From Bacteroidales bacterium (GTDB lineage: Bacteria; Bacteroidota; Bacteroidia; Bacteroidales; UBA932), in NCBI GenBank assembly GCA_024401925.1, contig JAKSKD010000019.1, forward strand, positions 1 to 33,135: DNA of 33,135 nucleotides. Reading direction: 5' to 3'. Positions within the stretch are counted from its first letter, which is position 1; each line of letters opens with the position of its first letter. The notes under the pieces were generated by a model that was not told the DNA's origin, ran no database searches, and worked only from the letters and a program-made list of their open reading frames with translations. Positions 20,943-27,842 of the stretch are shown here, one piece after another. The translations under genes were made by a program, and so were the position numbers.

Positions 20943-23219
20943 ATGAAAAACTACATTCCGACATTAGCGCTTGCTGTAATTATTGCGGCATCATGTTCGT
21001 CTCCCAAGGGAAATTCCCCATATGAGGCACAGATAAAGAAACAGATTGACAGGATGACTCTCGAGGAAAAGGCCGGCCAGATGGTTCAGATTACCATTGA
21101 CGCAGCCCTTGACCCGTCCACCGGTGAATTGAACCAGTCTGCACTTGATGAGATGATAGGGAAATACAAAGTCGGCTCATTTCTTAATGTAGTCGGTGGG
21201 GTATGCCCGTCCGCAGAGTGGATGTCGGGAATTGTGACGGCCTTGCAGGAAAAATCGATGGCGGAACTTGGCATACCGACCGTTTACGGACTGGATATGA
21301 TACACGGCGCTACATATCTTGACCAAGGTACTTTTTTCCCTCAGGAGGTGAATCTGGCAGCTACATTCAATCCGGAACATGCAGCGAATATGGGACGTAT
21401 CCTTGCGTATGAAACGCGCTCGATGCAGGTTCCTTGGGTGTTCTCGCCGGTAATGGACCTCGGGCGCAATCCTCTCTGGCCCCGCCAGTACGAGAGTTGG
21501 GGCGAAGACCCTTATGTCCAGACCGTAATGGCGGAAGCCGAGACACGTGCCATCCAAGGAGCTGACTATAATAATGTCGGTTTGGAGAATGCGGCTGTAT
21601 CCATCAAGCACTATATGGCTTATGGCGTACCTGCAACGGGAAAGGACCGTACGCCTGCATATATTCCTGATTATGAGCTACGCGAGCGCTATTTCCGCCC
21701 GTTCAAGGCCTGCATCGAGGCAGGTGCGCTGACCCTTATGGTCAACTCCTCGTCAATCAACGGGGTCCCTGTCCACTCAAGCCACAAGTTGCTCACGGAG
21801 TGGACCAAGGAGGAGCTGAACTGGGACGGTATGATAGTGACCGACTGGGCCGATATCGACAACCTTTTCCAGCGAGACCATATCGCAGCTGATAGAAAGG
21901 AGGCACTCGTGCTTGGAATCAATGCCGGAATCGATATGATAATGGATCCTTATCGTGCTGAAACTGCGCAAGATATCTGTGACCTTGTCCGTGAAGGACG
22001 TATCCCGATGTCGAGGATAGATGATGCCGTAGCGCGCGTTCTTCGTCTTAAATATCGTCTGGGATTGTTCGACAGTCCTACCTGGGAATTTGACTATTCA
22101 AAGGTCAACTGCCCTGAATTCGTGGCACAGGCTACTGCCGCTGCCGTGGAATCGGAGGTGCTGCTCAAGAATGACGGTATTCTGCCACTCAAGGAGAATG
22201 CACGCATTCTTGTAACTGGTCCTAATGCGAATTCGATCCGTACATTGAACGGAGGATGGTCATACACATGGCAGGGAACTGACAATCCCGCATATGTGGA
22301 GAGATTCAATACAATTTACGAGGCACTTTCGGCAAGGTTCAGCAATGTGAAGTACGTGCCGGGCATAACTTACAAAGAATATGGGGACTGGCAGGAGGAA
22401 GATGCCTCAGGCATAGGACAGGCCGTAGCCGCTGCCGCAGGCTGTGATGTGATTGTTGCCTGTGTCGGTGAGAACACTTATTGCGAAACGCCCGGAAACA
22501 TCAATGACTTGTCGATGTCAGCCAACCAGCGCAATCTCGTGAAAGCTCTGGCAGCAACAGGAAAGCCGGTGGTTCTTATCCTTAATGAGGGACGTCCGCG
22601 TGTAATAAACGACATTGAGCCGCTTGCCTCGGCTGTCGTTGATATAATGCTCCCTGGAAACTATGGAGCCGATGCTCTTGCGGCCCTTCTTTCCGGAGAT
22701 GAGAACTTCAGTGGAAAACTGCCTTTCACTTATCCGAAATGGGTGAATTCACTCCATACTTATGACTACAAAGTCACCGAACATCGCGAAGTTATGGACG
22801 GAGCGTACAATTATGATGCGGTGATGGACGTACAGTGGTCTTTCGGAGATGGCTTGAGCTACACCACGTTTGCTTATTCAAACCTCTCTGTTACTCCTGA
22901 GGAATTCACTGCTGGGGACGAGATTACAGTTTCAGTGGACGTCACCAACAGCGGGGACGTGAAGGGCAAGGAAAGCGTACTTGTGTATAGCAGCGACCTT
23001 GTGGCATCCATCATTCCTGACGTGAGAAGGCTTCGTGCCTTCACGAAAGTGGAACTCGCTCCGGGTGAGACGAAGACAGTTACGTTAAAGATTCCTGCAA
23101 GGGAACTTGCATTTGCAGGCGATGACGGAAAGTGGCATCTTGAAGAAGGTGAATTCCGCATCAGCGCCGGTGGCCTCGGTGAAATCATTAACTGCACCGC
23201 CACCTCCGACTGGAAATAA
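20943..23219 (+). CDS. Lipoprotein glycoside hydrolase family 3 (BglX-like beta-glucosidase)
   Basis: The 758-aa product has a lipoprotein signal with lipobox AASC (Cys18), so it is anchored to a membrane facing the periplasm or the cell surface. The residues after Cys are SSPKGN, without the acidic surface-export signal. GH3 landmarks are MTLEEKAGQMVQI, GLDMIHG (near 116-122), AVSIKHYMAYG (Lys222-His223) and the nucleophile Asp301 in GMIVTDWADI. A C-terminal sandwich domain follows, with VGENTYCETPGNINDLSM, and then a fibronectin III-like domain (about residues 655-750). Only 6 bp separate it from the acetylesterase. The overall look is BglX-like; it likely trims beta-linked glucosides or cello/glucomannan oligosaccharides. 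Confidence 0.93.
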   Translation: MKNYIPTLALAVIIAASCSSPKGNSPYEAQIKKQIDRMTLEEKAGQMVQITIDAALDPSTGELNQSALDEMIGKYKVGSFLNVVGGVCPSAEWMSGIVTALQEKSMAELGIPTVYGLDMIHGATYLDQGTFFPQEVNLAATFNPEHAANMGRILAYETRSMQVPWVFSPVMDLGRNPLWPRQYESWGEDPYVQTVMAEAETRAIQGADYNNVGLENAAVSIKHYMAYGVPATGKDRTPAYIPDYELRERYFRPFKACIEAGALTLMVNSSSINGVPVHSSHKLLTEWTKEELNWDGMIVTDWADIDNLFQRDHIAADRKEALVLGINAGIDMIMDPYRAETAQDICDLVREGRIPMSRIDDAVARVLRLKYRLGLFDSPTWEFDYSKVNCPEFVAQATAAAVESEVLLKNDGILPLKENARILVTGPNANSIRTLNGGWSYTWQGTDNPAYVERFNTIYEALSARFSNVKYVPGITYKEYGDWQEEDASGIGQAVAAAAGCDVIVACVGENTYCETPGNINDLSMSANQRNLVKALAATGKPVVLILNEGRPRVINDIEPLASAVVDIMLPGNYGADALAALLSGDENFSGKLPFTYPKWVNSLHTYDYKVTEHREVMDGAYNYDAVMDVQWSFGDGLSYTTFAYSNLSVTPEEFTAGDEITVSVDVTNSGDVKGKESVLVYSSDLVASIIPDVRRLRAFTKVELAPGETKTVTLKIPARELAFAGDDGKWHLEEGEFRISAGGLGEIINCTATSDWK

Positions 23220-23370
23220 TCTGATTAATTTCATATTACGTTCTTCACCGAAGACCTTTCGCACTTCGTGCTCCATCCAGTCACTCACTGCGTTCGTGAC
23301 AGCCGCTCACGAGGCCGCGGCCGGCCACGGGTCCCTGGTGAAGAACGTAATATGAAATTAAAGCATTATT
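23215..23370 (-). repeat. Structured intergenic repeat, copy E1 (minus orientation)
   Basis: This element fills the gap between two convergent genes. A perfect 25-bp inverted repeat (23225-23249 against 23337-23361) closes a GC-rich interior. AATAAT/ATTATT at 23215-23220 and 23365-23370 extends the pairing across both flanking stop codons. Read on the minus strand, the 84-nt core (23335 to 23252) runs from GGGACCCGT through TCGTGAGCGG and GGATGGAGC to AAGGTCT. It matches copy E2 at about 68 of 84 positions without gaps. Three internal hairpins can form, e.g. GCAC-GAA-GTGC. I do not recognise a named family; REP-like element, bidirectional terminator or small structured RNA are all possible. 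Confidence 0.88.
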
Positions 23371-23920
23371 TAGTGCGGAAATTCTCCGGGTATTTCGGAG
23401 TGAGGTGCCAGGATTCCGCAACCTTCTGAAGGCGGTCCGTGTCCGCTCTGGCATCATCCGTGAGTTCCAGCTTGTACGGCATTGCAATCTCTTTCTTTCC
23501 CCAGTCGAAATACCCCATATAGACAGGACAGCCGGTCTGCTTTGCAATAGTGTGATATCCGGTCTTCCATTTTCTTACGGGCTTGCGCGTGCCTTCCGGG
23601 CATATCGTGAGCTGGAATGGCCCCGGTTTCTCCATTTCGTGGATGATGTTCATCATCAGGGCTGTGGAGTTGGACCTGTCCACAGGAAACCCGCCCAGAC
23701 TTTTGAGAATCCAGCTTAAAGGCCACACAAAGGATTCTTTCTTAATCATGGTTTTCATCTTGCGACCGTAAGAGCGATAGTAGAGGTAGCCTATGGCAAA
23801 ATCCCAGATGCTGGTGTGCGGCACGCCCAGCAGGATTGCCTTTTCATCGTTGAACGGAGGCGGTATCGATCTCCACCCCAGGACCTTTGTAAGAAGAAAA
23901 TTGCAGAATTTTGGGCTCAT
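23366..23920 (-). CDS. PlsC-like 1-acylglycerol-3-phosphate acyltransferase family protein
   Basis: The 184-aa product belongs to the lysophospholipid acyltransferase superfamily. The HX4D catalytic block is PHTSIWDF (near residues 34-41), KKESFVWPLSWILKSLGGFPVDR forms block II, and the substrate block is ICPEGTRKPVRKWKTGYHTIAKQTGCPV. The protein is short relative to typical PlsC (about 240 aa) and lacks a clear N-terminal membrane helix. It resembles the small acyltransferases common in Bacteroidetes. It starts 3 bp after parE, and its TAA lies in the outer edge of repeat E1. The acyl acceptor is not predictable. Confidence 0.87.
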   Translation of the reverse strand: MSPKFCNFLLTKVLGWRSIPPPFNDEKAILLGVPHTSIWDFAIGYLYYRSYGRKMKTMIKKESFVWPLSWILKSLGGFPVDRSNSTALMMNIIHEMEKPGPFQLTICPEGTRKPVRKWKTGYHTIAKQTGCPVYMGYFDWGKKEIAMPYKLELTDDARADTDRLQKVAESWHLTPKYPENFRTK

Positions 23921-23923
23921 ATA

Positions 23924-25837
23924 CTATATATTTACGTCTTCGAGTTCCTCCTCAGAACGGAGGTTCTCGCGGATGAAGTTCTGTCTGTCTATTGTATTCT
24001 CGCCCATATAGAAGGACATTATGTCGGTGATTGATTCCTCATCGGCAAGCTTGACGCTGTCGAGCCTCATATTCTCTCCTATGAAGTCCACGAACTCGTT
24101 AGGCGAGATTTCTCCCAGACCTTTGAACCGTGTAATCTCAGTGCCGGTCTTGAGGTCTCTGATGGCCTTTTCTTTTTCTTCCGGGGAGTAGCAGTACCGT
24201 GTCTCCTTCTTGTTGCGGACGCGGAAAAGGGGAGTCTGAAGAATATGTACGTGCCCTCTTCGGATAAGATCCGGATAGTACTTCATGAAGAAGGTCAGCA
24301 CCAGCATACGGATATGCATTCCATCATCATCGGCATCGGTTGCCACGATGATGTTGTTGTATCTGAGGTTCTCAAGGTCGTCCTCCACACCGAGTGCCGA
24401 TACCAGAAGATTCAGTTCCTCGTTCTCGGCAACTTTCTTGCGGCTTTCCTTGTAGCAGTTGATAGGCTTTCCACGGAGGCTGAACACGGCCTGGTTGTTG
24501 GCATTGCGCACCTTGGTGATGGTCCCGCTCGCGGAGTCTCCCTCGGTGATGAATATGCTGGATTTTTCGATGTCGGCTTCGGTCTTTTCTGTCACCTTGT
24601 CATTGTAGTGATAGCGGCAGTCCCTGAGCTTCCGGTTATATACGTTAGCCTTCTTGTTCTTTTCCCTTGTCTTTTTCTGGATGCCGGAGATTTCCTCCCT
24701 TTCCTGCTGTGAAGCCTTAATCTTCTCCTCAATGATAGGAACGATGTCCATATGCATATGGAGGTAGTTGTCTAACTTCTTGGAAATGAAGTCGTTGACG
24801 AAATAGCGGATGGTGGGTCCTACATCCATCTTTATAGCCCCGTTCTCGTCTTTCTCCTGCTTCTCCCACATATAGGTGGATCCGAGCTTGGTCTTTGTCT
24901 GGGCCTCGAAAGTAGGCTCCTGAATCTGTATGCTGATGGCTCCTACAACGCCCTGACGGCAGTCCTGCGGGTCGTAATTCTTCTTGAAGAACTCCTTGAG
25001 AGTCTTGGCTATGGCTTCGCGGTAAGCTGCAAGATGGGTTCCTCCGTCACGGGTGTTCTGCCCGTTTACGAATGAGGAGATGTTCTCTCCATACGCGTTT
25101 CCGTGGGTCAGCACAATCTCAATATCCTCGCCTTCGAGATGGATTGGAGGATAGAGAGGGGCTTCTGCAAGGTTCTCGTTCACGAGATCCAGAAGACCGT
25201 TCTCTGACTTGTACTGGATGCCGTTGAAAACTATGGTGAGTCCTTTCTTGAGATAGGAGTAGTTCTTTGCCATAGTCTCCACATAATCCATATTGTAGTG
25301 GTATTCTCCGAACATCAGAGGGTCTGGGGTGAAGGCTACCAGCGTACCGTTCTTCTCCTTGGTGGTGCCTTTACCGCTGTCCACGAGTTCGCCGCGTTCG
25401 AATTTGGCCCAGGAATTCTCACCATTCCTGTTGGAGCATACATAGAATTCGGAAGAGAGAGCATTTACTGCCTTAGTTCCCACACCATTCAGTCCCACTG
25501 ACTTTTTGAATGCTTTGTCGTCGAATTTTCCTCCCGTGTTGAGGATGCTGACAGCCTTGATGACGGAATCCAGAGGAATGCCGCGTCCGTAATCGCGTAC
25601 GGTCACCTGCTCGTTCTCAATGCTGACGATGACTTGCTTTCCGAAGCCCATCGCGAATTCATCGATGGAGTTGTCAATGATTTCCTTGAGGAGCACATAG
25701 ATACCGTCTCCTGGATTTCTTCCGTCGCCGAGGCGTCCAATGTACATTCCGGGACGGCGTCTGATGTGTTCGACGCCTTCCATAGTGACAATCTGCTCGT
25801 CACCGTACTGTATGTTCGTAGCTTTCTGCTCTGCCAT
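23924..25837 (-). CDS. parE: DNA topoisomerase IV subunit B
   Basis: ParE is the ATPase subunit of topoisomerase IV, which decatenates daughter chromosomes. I use ATG 25837 (MAEQKATNIQYG), giving 637 aa; a TTG start 30 bp upstream would run into the preceding gene's end. GHKL motifs are EIIDNSIDEF, DYGRGIPLDS and GLNGVGTKAVNALS; the transducer and TOPRIM follow with FITEGDSASGT and ATDADDDGMHIRML. The N-terminal block DGIYVLLKEIIDNSIDEF is the form I associate with Bacteroidetes ParE; GyrB usually has LVYEVVDNSIDEA. ParC is not adjacent on this window. It is the middle gene of DUF1573-parE-acyltransferase. Confidence 0.92.
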   Translation of the reverse strand: MAEQKATNIQYGDEQIVTMEGVEHIRRRPGMYIGRLGDGRNPGDGIYVLLKEIIDNSIDEFAMGFGKQVIVSIENEQVTVRDYGRGIPLDSVIKAVSILNTGGKFDDKAFKKSVGLNGVGTKAVNALSSEFYVCSNRNGENSWAKFERGELVDSGKGTTKEKNGTLVAFTPDPLMFGEYHYNMDYVETMAKNYSYLKKGLTIVFNGIQYKSENGLLDLVNENLAEAPLYPPIHLEGEDIEIVLTHGNAYGENISSFVNGQNTRDGGTHLAAYREAIAKTLKEFFKKNYDPQDCRQGVVGAISIQIQEPTFEAQTKTKLGSTYMWEKQEKDENGAIKMDVGPTIRYFVNDFISKKLDNYLHMHMDIVPIIEEKIKASQQEREEISGIQKKTREKNKKANVYNRKLRDCRYHYNDKVTEKTEADIEKSSIFITEGDSASGTITKVRNANNQAVFSLRGKPINCYKESRKKVAENEELNLLVSALGVEDDLENLRYNNIIVATDADDDGMHIRMLVLTFFMKYYPDLIRRGHVHILQTPLFRVRNKKETRYCYSPEEKEKAIRDLKTGTEITRFKGLGEISPNEFVDFIGENMRLDSVKLADEESITDIMSFYMGENTIDRQNFIRENLRSEEELEDVNI

Positions 25838-25859
25838 ATAATGAGTTTTGCTATTTTCG

Positions 25860-27032
25860 TTATTCAATTACGCCGGTGATGAAAAGGTTCACCAGAGGAC
25901 GGAGAGGGGAGTTGGTTGTGAGGGTGAGGAGAATAAGCACTTCGCCCTTCGACAGCCCTGTCGTGTCAAGTTCGGCTGTGACAACTCCTTCCTTTCCAGG
26001 TTTGATGTCTGCAGGAATCGTAGCTGAGACCTTCTTGCTGTCCGAATTTATGCTGTAAATCTTCAAGTCCTGCTTGCCTAGATTCTTGCATTTGAAGCTT
26101 ACGGTAAGTTTCTTTCCGGCCTTGACCTTGTCAATAGAGTAATTAGTATGTTCGAAATATGGATTTGCACCGGCATTCTTCTGTTCTTTGGTCCAGGAAT
26201 CAAAATTCTCCTTTGTGAATGCCCAGATGCCAATTTCTGATTTGCCTGCACCAAGCCTCTCATTCGCGTCAGTCTGCAGGGCTTCCGCACCAGCTCTTTT
26301 CTCCGTCTTCGCGGTGGACGCTACAATCGCTTTCTGCTCCTTCCCATCAATAACCGGTGTGGCATAGTAGAAATTCTTACCCCATTTACTTCTGTCTGCA
26401 CTGATAGTGTAACTGACCGTCGCCGTAGTGCCTGCCGGGACAGGATTCGGGCTTATGCTGATTGCAAGGCCGTCGGAGACATTGCGGAATTCCACCTTGA
26501 TTGGGGCTTTTCCTATATTGGCTGCGAGGAACTGTCCGCTTTTCTGGGCACCCTGCTGGAGGTTTCCGCCTTGTATTTCCGTCTCCTTAAGGGCGAAATT
26601 GCCGAAATGTATGGAGTACAGATCCTTCAGAGGAGCCTGAACGTGATGGGCTGCACCGCGGAGCTTGAGTATGACAGGCTGCTTGAGGTCGGAAATGTAG
26701 CAGGTGATGGACTTGTCGAACATTGTCTCTCCGTCTTCATTCTTATATGTTGCGGAAACAGTACCTGTCTTGCCCGGCTGGATTTCCTCTCTTGTCCATT
26801 CTACATCGGTACATCCGCAGGATGATATCACGCTGAGAATCGAGACAGGTTTCGTGGAGACGTTGGTAAGTGTGAATGTACAACTTACTGGACCGTCAGT
26901 AGTCATTATGTCGCCGAAATCGTGGACGGTCCTGTCGAATTGTACGATTCCTCCAACCTTCTGCTGGGCATAAGAAAAATTGATGCCCAGACATAGCACC
27001 AATATGGCTGATGTGATTTTTCCTAACTTCAT
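25860..27032 (-). CDS. DUF1573 domain-containing secreted protein
   Basis: The 390-aa product has a signal peptide ending near NFSYAQ. It then has a DUF1573 domain with the marker FDRTVHDFGDI, the cytosolic-looking but secreted immunoglobulin-like strand pattern CTFTLTNVSTKPVSILSVISSCGC (Cys-Gly-Cys near residue 71) and a TVSATYKNEDGE turn. Two further beta-sandwich units follow (about 130-225 and 285-390), the last with KLTVSFKCKNLGKQDLKIYSINSD. Such proteins are abundant in Bacteroidetes and have no proven activity. It is the first gene of the operon with parE 22 bp downstream, and it is divergent from the ferredoxin operon across 107 bp. Confidence 0.88.
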   Translation of the reverse strand: MKLGKITSAILVLCLGINFSYAQQKVGGIVQFDRTVHDFGDIMTTDGPVSCTFTLTNVSTKPVSILSVISSCGCTDVEWTREEIQPGKTGTVSATYKNEDGETMFDKSITCYISDLKQPVILKLRGAAHHVQAPLKDLYSIHFGNFALKETEIQGGNLQQGAQKSGQFLAANIGKAPIKVEFRNVSDGLAISISPNPVPAGTTATVSYTISADRSKWGKNFYYATPVIDGKEQKAIVASTAKTEKRAGAEALQTDANERLGAGKSEIGIWAFTKENFDSWTKEQKNAGANPYFEHTNYSIDKVKAGKKLTVSFKCKNLGKQDLKIYSINSDSKKVSATIPADIKPGKEGVVTAELDTTGLSKGEVLILLTLTTNSPLRPLVNLFITGVIE

Positions 27033-27068
27033 ACTAGGATGTAAAGTTACAAAAATCCTTCCATATGA

Positions 27069-27100
27069 TTTGATAATTCCGATTAATCGGCTTATTTTTG
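27069..27100 (+). promoter_or_regulatory. Promoter of the ferredoxin-lysR operon with spacer palindrome
   Basis: TTTG (27069-27072) is followed after exactly 20 nt by TATTTTTG (27093-27100), a full match to the Bacteroidetes consensus. The spacer contains the perfect 12-bp palindrome CCGATTAATCGG (27079-27090). A dimeric regulator bound there would block or remodel polymerase contact. The start of transcription would be near 27105-27107, giving a leader of about 35 nt before the ferredoxin ATG. Confidence 0.78.
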
Positions 27101-27139
27101 TACTACTGAGAAGTGAAATTATAAACCAAATTTTATATT

Positions 27140-27313
27140 ATGGCACACAAAATCAATCCTGAAACCTGTGTAGCTTGTGGAGCTTGCCAGGCTGAATGCC
27201 CATCAGGAGCCATTTCCGAGGGCGATGTTTATTCAATCGATCCTAATGTCTGCATAGATTGCGGAGCTTGCGCTGACGCTTGCCCTACAGGTTCTATTTC
27301 TGCAGCCGAATAA
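27140..27313 (+). CDS. 2[4Fe-4S] ferredoxin, 57 aa
   Basis: This small gene translates to MAHKINPETCVACGACQAE and onward, ending SISAAE. Two CxxCxxCxxxCP motifs are present (CVACGACQAECP near residues 10-21 and CIDCGACADACP near residues 38-49), the clostridial-type bacterial ferredoxin fold of 55-60 aa. It carries electrons at low potential in the cytoplasm. The pyruvate:ferredoxin oxidoreductase encoded just beyond repeat E2 on the other strand is the obvious donor; that link is inference from proximity. A strong promoter lies 40 bp upstream. The HTH protein follows after 10 bp, so the two are co-transcribed. Confidence 0.96.
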   Translation: MAHKINPETCVACGACQAECPSGAISEGDVYSIDPNVCIDCGACADACPTGSISAAE

Positions 27314-27323
27314 ATCCTGAGTC

Positions 27324-27620
27324 GTGCTTGAAGATTTCAGGTTAAAAGTTTTTATGACAGTATCTCAGACGCGCAGCTTCACTGAGGCCGCGCGTCTTCT
27401 TGGTATATCCCAGCCCGCTGTCAGCCAGAATATCAGCGAACTTGAAAAACAGACGGGAGCCCAACTCTTCAACCGCTCCCGCACAGAGGTCACCCTGACC
27501 GAGAAAGGTCGCATCTTCCACTCTTTCGCCCGGAAGATTCTCAACACCTACGAAGACCTCGACCTTGTCTTCTCCAATCCGGATGCCTTTGGCCCTCTTT
27601 CCGATATCCTTTTAAAATGA
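27324..27620 (+). CDS. LysR-type HTH-only protein (98 aa, no effector domain)
   Basis: The product shows a complete LysR-type winged HTH: FRLKVFMTVSQTRSFTEAARLLGISQPAVSQNISELEKQ (about residues 5-43), then LFNRSRTEVTLTEKGRIFHSFARKILNTYEDL, with the start of the linker helix. It ends at 98 aa, whereas LysR regulators are about 300 aa. The ligand-binding domain is absent, and repeat E2 begins only 27 bp after the stop. GTG 27324 is chosen because an in-frame TGA precedes it and the next ATG (27354) would cut the first helix. It may be a genuine short regulator, perhaps autoregulating the ferredoxin promoter, or the remnant of a truncated gene. The clean ending favours the first view slightly. 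Confidence 0.8.
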   Translation: MLEDFRLKVFMTVSQTRSFTEAARLLGISQPAVSQNISELEKQTGAQLFNRSRTEVTLTEKGRIFHSFARKILNTYEDLDLVFSNPDAFGPLSDILLK

Positions 27621-27647
27621 TTTTGCATTCCTGACGGACTTCATTCG

Positions 27648-27774
27648 AGCGGGCGACTGGCTCCTTCGGGACCCGTAGCTGCCCGCGGCTTCGTGAGCGG
27701 GTGGATCGCACGCAGTGCGAGACGGGATGGAGCGCGTAGCGCGGAAGGTCTCCGAAGGAGAACAGTCGCCCGCT
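27648..27774 (+). repeat. Structured intergenic repeat, copy E2 (plus orientation)
   Basis: The outer arms AGCGGGCGACTG (27648-27659) and CAGTCGCCCGCT (27763-27774) pair perfectly. After a small internal loop, CTCCTTCGG (27661-27669) pairs with CCGAAGGAG (27752-27760). The interior holds hairpins CCCGC/GCGGG (27682-27701), TCGCAC-GCA-GTGCGA (27706-27720) and GCGC-GTA-GCGC (27732-27742). The 84-nt core (27668-27751) is homologous to copy E1 about 4.3 kb away in inverted orientation. The outer arms share no sequence with those of E1. Like E1 it sits between two convergent genes, the LysR-type HTH gene and the PFOR gene. Confidence 0.88.
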
Positions 27775-27783
27775 TGTAGGCAA

Positions 27784-27823
27784 TATAAAAGAAAATGAAG
27801 GTGGCCGTCCGGTCACCTTCATT
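27784..27823 (-). terminator. Rho-independent terminator of the PFOR gene
   Basis: Arms at 27794-27806 and 27811-27823 (AATGAAGGTG... against ...CACCTTCATT) pair over 13 bp with one G-U around a GTCC loop. On the minus strand a T-rich tract (TTTTCTTTTATATT) follows. It lies about 20 bp behind the PFOR stop codon. Between it and repeat E2 only about 10 bp remain, so the whole 222-bp intergenic region is explained by E2 plus this terminator. Confidence 0.85.
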
Positions 27824-27842
27824 CAGATATATCAGTGAAGAC

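Follow-up and report, generated by a model that had tools for sequence, protein, structure and literature searches.

How can two copies of a repeat share a folded core, and yet be closed by stems that have nothing in common? This question is raised by a window of 33,135 nucleotides, the contig JAKSKD010000019.1 of a Bacteroidales bacterium (contig C11 of genome G000, which comprises 1.86 Mb in 67 contigs). The copies are E1 on the minus strand (23225-23361) and E2 on the plus strand (27647-27775). An earlier note, made from the sequence of the window, had described them as structures whose folding is conserved while their sequence changes, and had left undecided whether they are a functional RNA or a mobile DNA hairpin. 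E1 and E2 belong to a family of palindromic elements dispersed in the genomes of one Bacteroidales genus, apparently Cryptobacteroides. The best reading, to which we assign a probability of roughly 0.6, is a selfish family resembling repetitive extragenic palindromic sequences (REPs) and Rickettsia palindromic elements (RPEs), with its core at the tip of palindromes that are often private to their site.

The cores of E1 (23252-23335) and E2 (27668-27751) align without gaps, an E1 position being 51003 minus the E2 position, and 68 of the 84 nucleotides are identical; on both strands of the window, the runner-up ungapped match of the E2 core reaches 38/84. Among the 16 differences are three compensatory pairs: 27682/27701 (C-G in E2, G-C in E1) in a pseudoknot, 27706/27720 (T-A versus A-T) in the hairpin P3, and 27734/27740 (G-C versus A-T) in the hairpin P4. 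In E2, the hairpin P2 (27674-27693) pairs 27674-27679 with 27688-27693, and its loop (27682-27686) pairs with 27697-27701 to give an H-type pseudoknot (27682-27701); P3 (27703-27723) and P4 (27732-27742, GCGC-GTA-GCGC; many copies have a GCGAAGC-type loop) follow. The E1 core comprises the same four parts. The closing stem of E1 consists of 25 perfect pairs (23225-23249 with 23337-23361); that of E2 is formed by 27647-27659 with 27763-27775 and eight inner pairs. These stems are unrelated to each other, each is self-complementary, and both copies lie in convergent gaps; in all these respects, as in the identity of the cores and the compensatory pairs, the earlier note described the two copies correctly. 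The folding z-score on the element strand is -5.6 for E2 and -9.3 for E1, and both strands of both copies beat all 200 shuffles.

A covariance model built from four copies (R1) matches both E1 (23243-23344, E 2.7e-21) and E2 (27660-27760, E 7.8e-21); an improved later model is denoted R2. Of 128 R1 hits from the window and from fetched loci, 119 were aligned, nine being omitted for length or identity. What the copies conserve is a core of roughly 85 nt, made up of the inner end of P1, P2 with its H-type pseudoknot, P3, and P4. In P2, the pseudoknot, P3, and P4 taken together, 91.1% of the cells are standard pairs, compared with 29-50% for slid versions of the fold. The covariation value is 0.356 versus 0.131 +/- 0.006 after shuffling and was reached by none of 500 shuffles, which ignore the relatedness of the copies; the expected covariation beyond chance is thus present in this sense, and the conserved folding with changing sequence holds for 119 copies as it did for two. 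The P2 helix is paired in 92.9% of the cells, with changes on both sides in six of its seven pairs. For the inner pseudoknot helix the value is 99.6% and for its outermost pair (25/50) 95.8%; at pairs 28/42 and 29/41, both sides are changed in 49 and 51 of the 119 copies, which are counts of cells and not of independent events. The pseudoknot pairs are outside the models R1 and R2, yet were drawn from some of the same copies. P4 is paired in 92.4% and P3, on the sequence alignment, in 80.0% of the cells. Further pair types alone do not exceed the shuffles (93 of 500 reach the value). Wobble pairs indicate no folding strand, neither in the core (58 G.U versus 42 A.C, p = 0.13) nor in the arms (56 versus 43, p = 0.23).

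The suggested search for more copies was successful. In G000, blastn with E2 found six places, E2 itself included, and R1 gave 16 matches at E <= 1, 12 of them at E < 1e-6. When R1 was applied at E <= 0.001 to 61 genomes, 28 of the 37 belonging to the genus contained 1-23 copies each, and none of the 24 from other families of the order contained any. R2 at E <= 1e-5 had matches in five of 393 genomes of the order, namely the own genome, one from another genus of the family, and three from other families; two further genomes of the same genus in this set gave no match. A degenerate pattern scan of named contigs found at least 120 stretches; 79 of the 80 listed are named Bacteroidales, Bacteroidia or Candidatus Cryptobacteroides, many of the 80 come from ruminant gut, and three are named Cryptobacteroides. 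One listed copy (L228) lies on a contig titled Elusimicrobium (RUG13725), due to transfer or a binning error. The only Rfam matches of the window at the gathering threshold are two tRNAs, and the element itself matches no Rfam family there; at E values up to 10, there were only sub-threshold matches and no sensible family. A blastn search of plasmids and phages with one copy linked to an insertion sequence (IS) and its flank (L002:1425-1730) gave no match, and the element is unreported in the open-access literature searched. Locus L039 (G013 C2:46-764) carries three tandem copies at a spacing of about 305 nt, and at L012 (G000 C6:42093-42112) a weak core match of 20 nt has a tyrosine integrase gene and a sequence resembling a tRNA in its vicinity.

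Intergenic copies occupy 34 convergent, 36 co-directional, and 10 divergent gaps, compared with 8, 21, and 22 control gaps; this count relies on a home-made gene finder, keeps duplicates, and leaves 15 copies at contig edges unclassified. Within genes lie 33 of the 128 copies or, by a stricter codon-scored rule, 38 of the 191 distinct copies whose flanks are long enough, about one fifth. Two of these 38 (L124, L207) have no Pfam domain in a scan that left out L030, and in 28 of the 38 the element is on the strand opposite to the gene. The following host genes were named from their Pfam domains, some by the looser rule only, and some of the loci are mutually orthologous. They encode UvrA (two loci), UvrD (three), DNA polymerase I, RecG, DnaX (four), TilS (two), TruB (L277), SpoU methylase (two), Methyltransf_4 (two), an RNA methyltransferase, a MiaB-like, and three THUMP-like proteins, as well as PrmC-like (two copies), AroB (two copies), YgiQ-like radical SAM (three), PurL, PBP1C, U32 peptidase, and GH92 proteins, among others. 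The palindromic repeat is thus found in frame within conserved protein genes, as RPEs are; the copies were detected via open frames, which biases the count of stop-free and in-frame cases. Apart from this family, L389 upstream of mutL and the proteins of L035 and L074 contain repeats of the type CTCGAAATGACA and the peptides CHSERSEES / TGAERSGEI; these resemble a second kind of dispersed palindromic repeat, which occurs inside DnaX and UvrA too.

The closing arms behave differently from the core. Elements have a median length of 130 and, under lenient extension, a median stem of 21 pairs. Between the two arms of the same copy, the median Watson-Crick fraction is 0.73, and 66 of 201 copies reach at least 0.8; for arms of different copies the median is 0.41, and none of 996 combinations reaches 0.8. 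Among same-genome pairs whose cores are at least 95% identical, 23 of 36 have unrelated (mean below 0.65), self-complementary arms. These pairs comprise only loci with a mapped genome; the 23 come from five genomes, 11 of them from G001, and two pairs are counted doubly owing to a tandem copy. In L029 and L058 of G001, for example, the cores are identical and the 22-nt arms unrelated. When all pairs of the 128 copies are considered, the arms are on average about 0.49 identical where core identity is low, 0.58 for cores in the 0.90 bin, and 0.63 for those in the 0.95 bin; the mean is 0.78 for the seven pairs whose cores are identical, four of them IS-linked or tandem. The inner 20 nt of the E1 arm have no second site in their own genome at up to two mismatches and one match at three mismatches. 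The idea that the arms are copies of local sequence was rejected: best 18-mer arm matches of at least 14/18 occurred in 5 of 134 tests within the own locus versus 0 of 133 in other loci, a small excess, and the one that reaches 17/18 (L081) reflects a partial tandem copy, which consists of the 5' part with an identical arm and precedes the full copy by about 100 nt. In some intergenic copies (L067, L093, L131, L102), the arms contain terminator-like A and T tracts.

Orthologous loci allow occupied and empty sites to be compared. The element is present at 1 of 30 RecG, 3 of 30 TilS, 2 of 30 PrmC, and 1 of 30 UvrA loci, and, according to R2, at 4 of 30 loci upstream of mutL. In the RecG gene of G015, 237 nt lie between two motifs, compared with 105 nt in G008, the closest by identity in the search, where the motifs are adjacent; the difference is +132 nt. 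Among the 30 RecG orthologs, the distance is 213 nt in G027 and 165 nt in G009, both of which contain other inserts, and 105-126 nt in the remainder. UvrA of G027 is longer than that of G440 by exactly 111 nt, with 88-89% amino acid identity on either side. The empty site of G440 is a coding hairpin of -30.6 kcal/mol (-13.9 in G023, -12.9 in G439), whose right (outer) arm encodes a conserved F-x-x-R-F-E and whose left arm changes between the two species as pairing requires. The insert of G027 brings the complement of the host sequence GCGGAGGC, which is located at the tip of the G440 hairpin. In TilS, the gap measures 147 nt in G023, 231 in G011, and 18 in G027, that is, +129 and +213 nt; all 29 measured gaps are multiples of three, R2 also places an element in TilS of G004, and the G027 site lies between the halves of an 8-bp inverted repeat. 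In the G011 copy (L170), a long perfect hairpin stands in place of P4 and the arms are very long, with the frame still kept.

At PrmC site 2, where six loci were compared as DNA, G027 and G439 have the element, and perfect inverted repeats without a core are found in G023 (11 bp), G004 (12 bp), and G011 (8 bp). At PrmC site 1, G027 has a core that shares 98.7% identity with the one in its own U32 peptidase gene; none of the 29 further PrmC loci compared has a core at this site. Upstream of mutL, the element is present in G019, G005, G061, and G062, and its arms have changed in a compensatory manner (AGGGCC/GGCCCT versus AGGTTC/GAACCT): at such shared sites, the arms are inherited. Some of the coreless regions upstream of mutL (29 of 30 were inspected by eye) carry short hairpins. 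The coreless sites compared are few and were chosen because orthologs were at hand. As a separate observation, L390, L391, and L393 have short hairpins with the terminal sequence ATGACG (e.g. GATCCCCGATCAGGTCGGGGATGACG) at the mutL-upstream site that the element occupies in other species; these hairpins look like CGTC-tagged REPs. The idea that the arms are host sequence and nothing else was considered as well; it is supported at UvrA and not at RecG, and was rejected.

We infer a selfish way of life similar to that of REPs and RPEs, and propose that the core would enter a host hairpin at its tip, the hairpin being single-stranded or cruciform, terminator-like between genes and coding inside genes. 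Each copy would thereby display host arms, which inverted copying of the flank may lengthen, and intragenic copies would survive only where the added loop is tolerated and stop-free. The observations call for a core that is mobile and a palindrome specific to each site; entry at a hairpin tip together with inverted copying would give near-identical cores on site-specific, self-complementary arms, and the complement of the hairpin-tip sequence in the UvrA insert of G027 speaks for some such copying. Taken alone, this movement step falls somewhat short of an even chance. That a whole class of such parasites exists, in which a small pseudoknotted core enters the apex of any host palindrome, coding or not, and lengthens it by inverted flank copying, is a more doubtful proposition.

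Several observations weigh against the reading as a selfish REP/RPE-like family. Related arms occur in 13 of the 36 same-genome pairs with near-identical cores, some of which are tandem, IS-linked or parts of larger duplications, and the copies in two different genes, L065 (AroB) and L074 (UvrA), have arms alike at 0.81 and 0.92. The arms are weakly conserved as purine-rich between -25 and -17, which implies that they are not simply host sequence. Perfect hairpins number 45 in 322,841 bases versus seven in a first-order Markov copy, an excess much of which may be ordinary terminators; outside the elements, those of at least 15 bp are rare (four in the same 322,841 bases), so that, with a median stem of 21 pairs, pre-existing hairpins alone would be insufficient for such long arms. 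Two of the coreless sites do not fit: the RecG sites of relatives, inspected by eye, have no hairpin like the G015 arms, and at PrmC site 2, G440 lacks any perfect inverted repeat of at least 6 bp. Moreover, target-site duplication is not above control, and no mobilising enzyme was found.

The main rival is concerted evolution, which we regard as possible but doubtful: old copies would be inherited in place, and gene conversion would homogenise the cores within a genome and stop where homology stops. The arms would drift yet stay paired, one being copied from the other by template switching. The persistence of the mutL-upstream copies across species with compensatory arm changes is in keeping with this, as are the pairs L034, L052, and L244, which diverge more in the arms (0.62-0.83) than in the cores (0.79-0.85), and the arm wobble pairs, whose lack of strand bias is expected from correction at the DNA level. 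However, the RecG, UvrA, PrmC, and TilS sites are filled in one species and empty in relatives, G019 retains differing core types, and the near-identity of the G027 cores at PrmC site 1 and in the U32 peptidase gene is explained more simply by recent insertion, although later conversion is possible. Another proposal is a host-useful structured RNA or bidirectional terminator, kept at gene 3' ends and in mRNAs. It would account for the bias towards convergent gaps, the terminator-like tracts of some arms, and the strong covariation, but not for the fifth of the copies located in genes, mostly on the opposite strand, nor for the 26 of 30 mutL loci and the majority of orthologous sites that do without the element; since significant strand preference of the wobble pairs is also lacking, we consider it unlikely. 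Of the two possibilities left by the earlier note, the mobile element fits better, because the copies are dispersed, occupy several sites in one species that are empty in others, and in many cases lie inside coding genes, in both orientations; the functional RNA is less likely, and the wobble pairs do not indicate which strand folds. The pseudoknot as such, the copies within genes, and the hairpins at coreless sites go beyond what that note had recognised.

If the element is mobile, it could be a non-autonomous IS, a miniature inverted-repeat transposable element (MITE), or a REP dimer moved by a resident transposase, either that of the IS beside L002 and L006 or a Y1/RAYT protein. L002 and L006 lie directly 5' of a DUF772/DDE_Tnp_1_6 transposase, which we take to be IS1182-like, and have about 200-300 nt of flank in common, which the remnants L003 and L004 keep. 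Elsewhere, there is no common sequence past the arms, and many copies differ in their terminal inverted repeats, which, together with the control-level target duplication mentioned above, is not what defines a MITE. Copy number does not follow the number of Y1_Tnp genes (Spearman -0.07, p 0.68, 37 genomes); in these incomplete assemblies, Y1_Tnp is present in 32 of 61 genus genomes, in 6 of 13 genomes with at least five copies, and in 3 of 9 without copies. Movement by a resident transposase is improbable. That the element is removed from mRNA, as a spliced intron or a ribozyme, is far more improbable still. Its compact fold, long closing stem, and location in conserved genes might suggest one, but the inserts in RecG (+132), UvrA (+111), and TilS (+129/+213 nt) are stop-free and in frame, and an intron would need neither property; when 46 intergenic copies located in gaps below 330 nt were inspected by eye, none resembled a split gene.

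The convergent gap of E1 is flanked by a GH3 gene (plus strand) and an acyltransferase gene (minus strand), that of E2 by a short open reading frame encoding a LysR-type helix-turn-helix (plus strand) and a large minus-strand frame, presumably pyruvate:ferredoxin oxidoreductase. Between E2 and the latter gene, a separate inverted repeat GAAGGTGGCC...GGTCACCTTC (27786-27824) is probably the terminator of that gene.

Among known systems, mitochondrial double-hairpin elements are, by their name, hairpin elements too; they are organellar and regarded as mobile. RPEs were reportedly described by Ogata et al. in 2000 and 2002. In the excerpts of PMC10969869 and PMC3733652 consulted here, they are palindromic elements of about 150 bp, dispersed between genes and in frame in protein genes; each carries a conserved peptide (PMC10969869), and RPE-1 occurs in the gene of tRNA pseudouridine synthase B (PMC3733652). 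The TruB gene is also invaded here (L277). In contrast to RPEs, our element has a pseudoknotted, covarying core and arms that are often wholly different between copies, and the likeness is one of description. GTAG- and CGTC-tagged REPs, as far as the excerpt of Di Nocera et al. 2013 (PMC3733652) goes, lie near gene 3' ends in convergent and co-directional gaps, and no dedicated transposase is known for the CGTC repeats; the same excerpt reports intragenic REPs or RPEs in genes of excinuclease (UvrA), UvrD, DNA polymerase I, and tRNA pseudouridine synthase B. Gap types, gene 3' ends, and copies in repair genes are alike here. According to that excerpt, however, tagged REPs are stem-loops of 20-40 bp with a tetranucleotide tag, the CGTC families having a stem of 8-9 bp and a loop of 4-5 nt, whereas the core here measures about 85 nt and includes a pseudoknot, the median length is 130, and the median stem has 21 pairs. 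Nor are the tags enriched: GTAG and CGTC occur in 5.7% and 9.4% of 192 outer 5' flanks (30 nt) and in 9.4% and 11.9% of 202 3' flanks (40 nt), and two control tetramers in 10-13% and 12-27%. IS elements insert into REP palindromes (Tobes and Pareja 2006, PMC1525189, in excerpt); palindromes would be the targets here as well, but what is inserted would be a small, non-coding core at the apex, without a transposase gene.

Small palindromic repeats are common, yet seldom come with a higher-order fold or a hint of their mode of spreading. As core and arms often differ in history, the mobile unit and the target of a palindromic repeat become a testable question. The intragenic copies are again located in DNA replication, repair, and RNA-modification genes, as in other bacteria according to the excerpt of PMC3733652, and this recurrence wants explaining. 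For annotation, it matters that loops of about 40 residues in some of the repair and RNA-modification enzymes of these gut bacteria derive from a repeat. The element lives as RPEs and intragenic REPs do; it lacks their tags and size, has a pseudoknot, and stays below the thresholds of Rfam.

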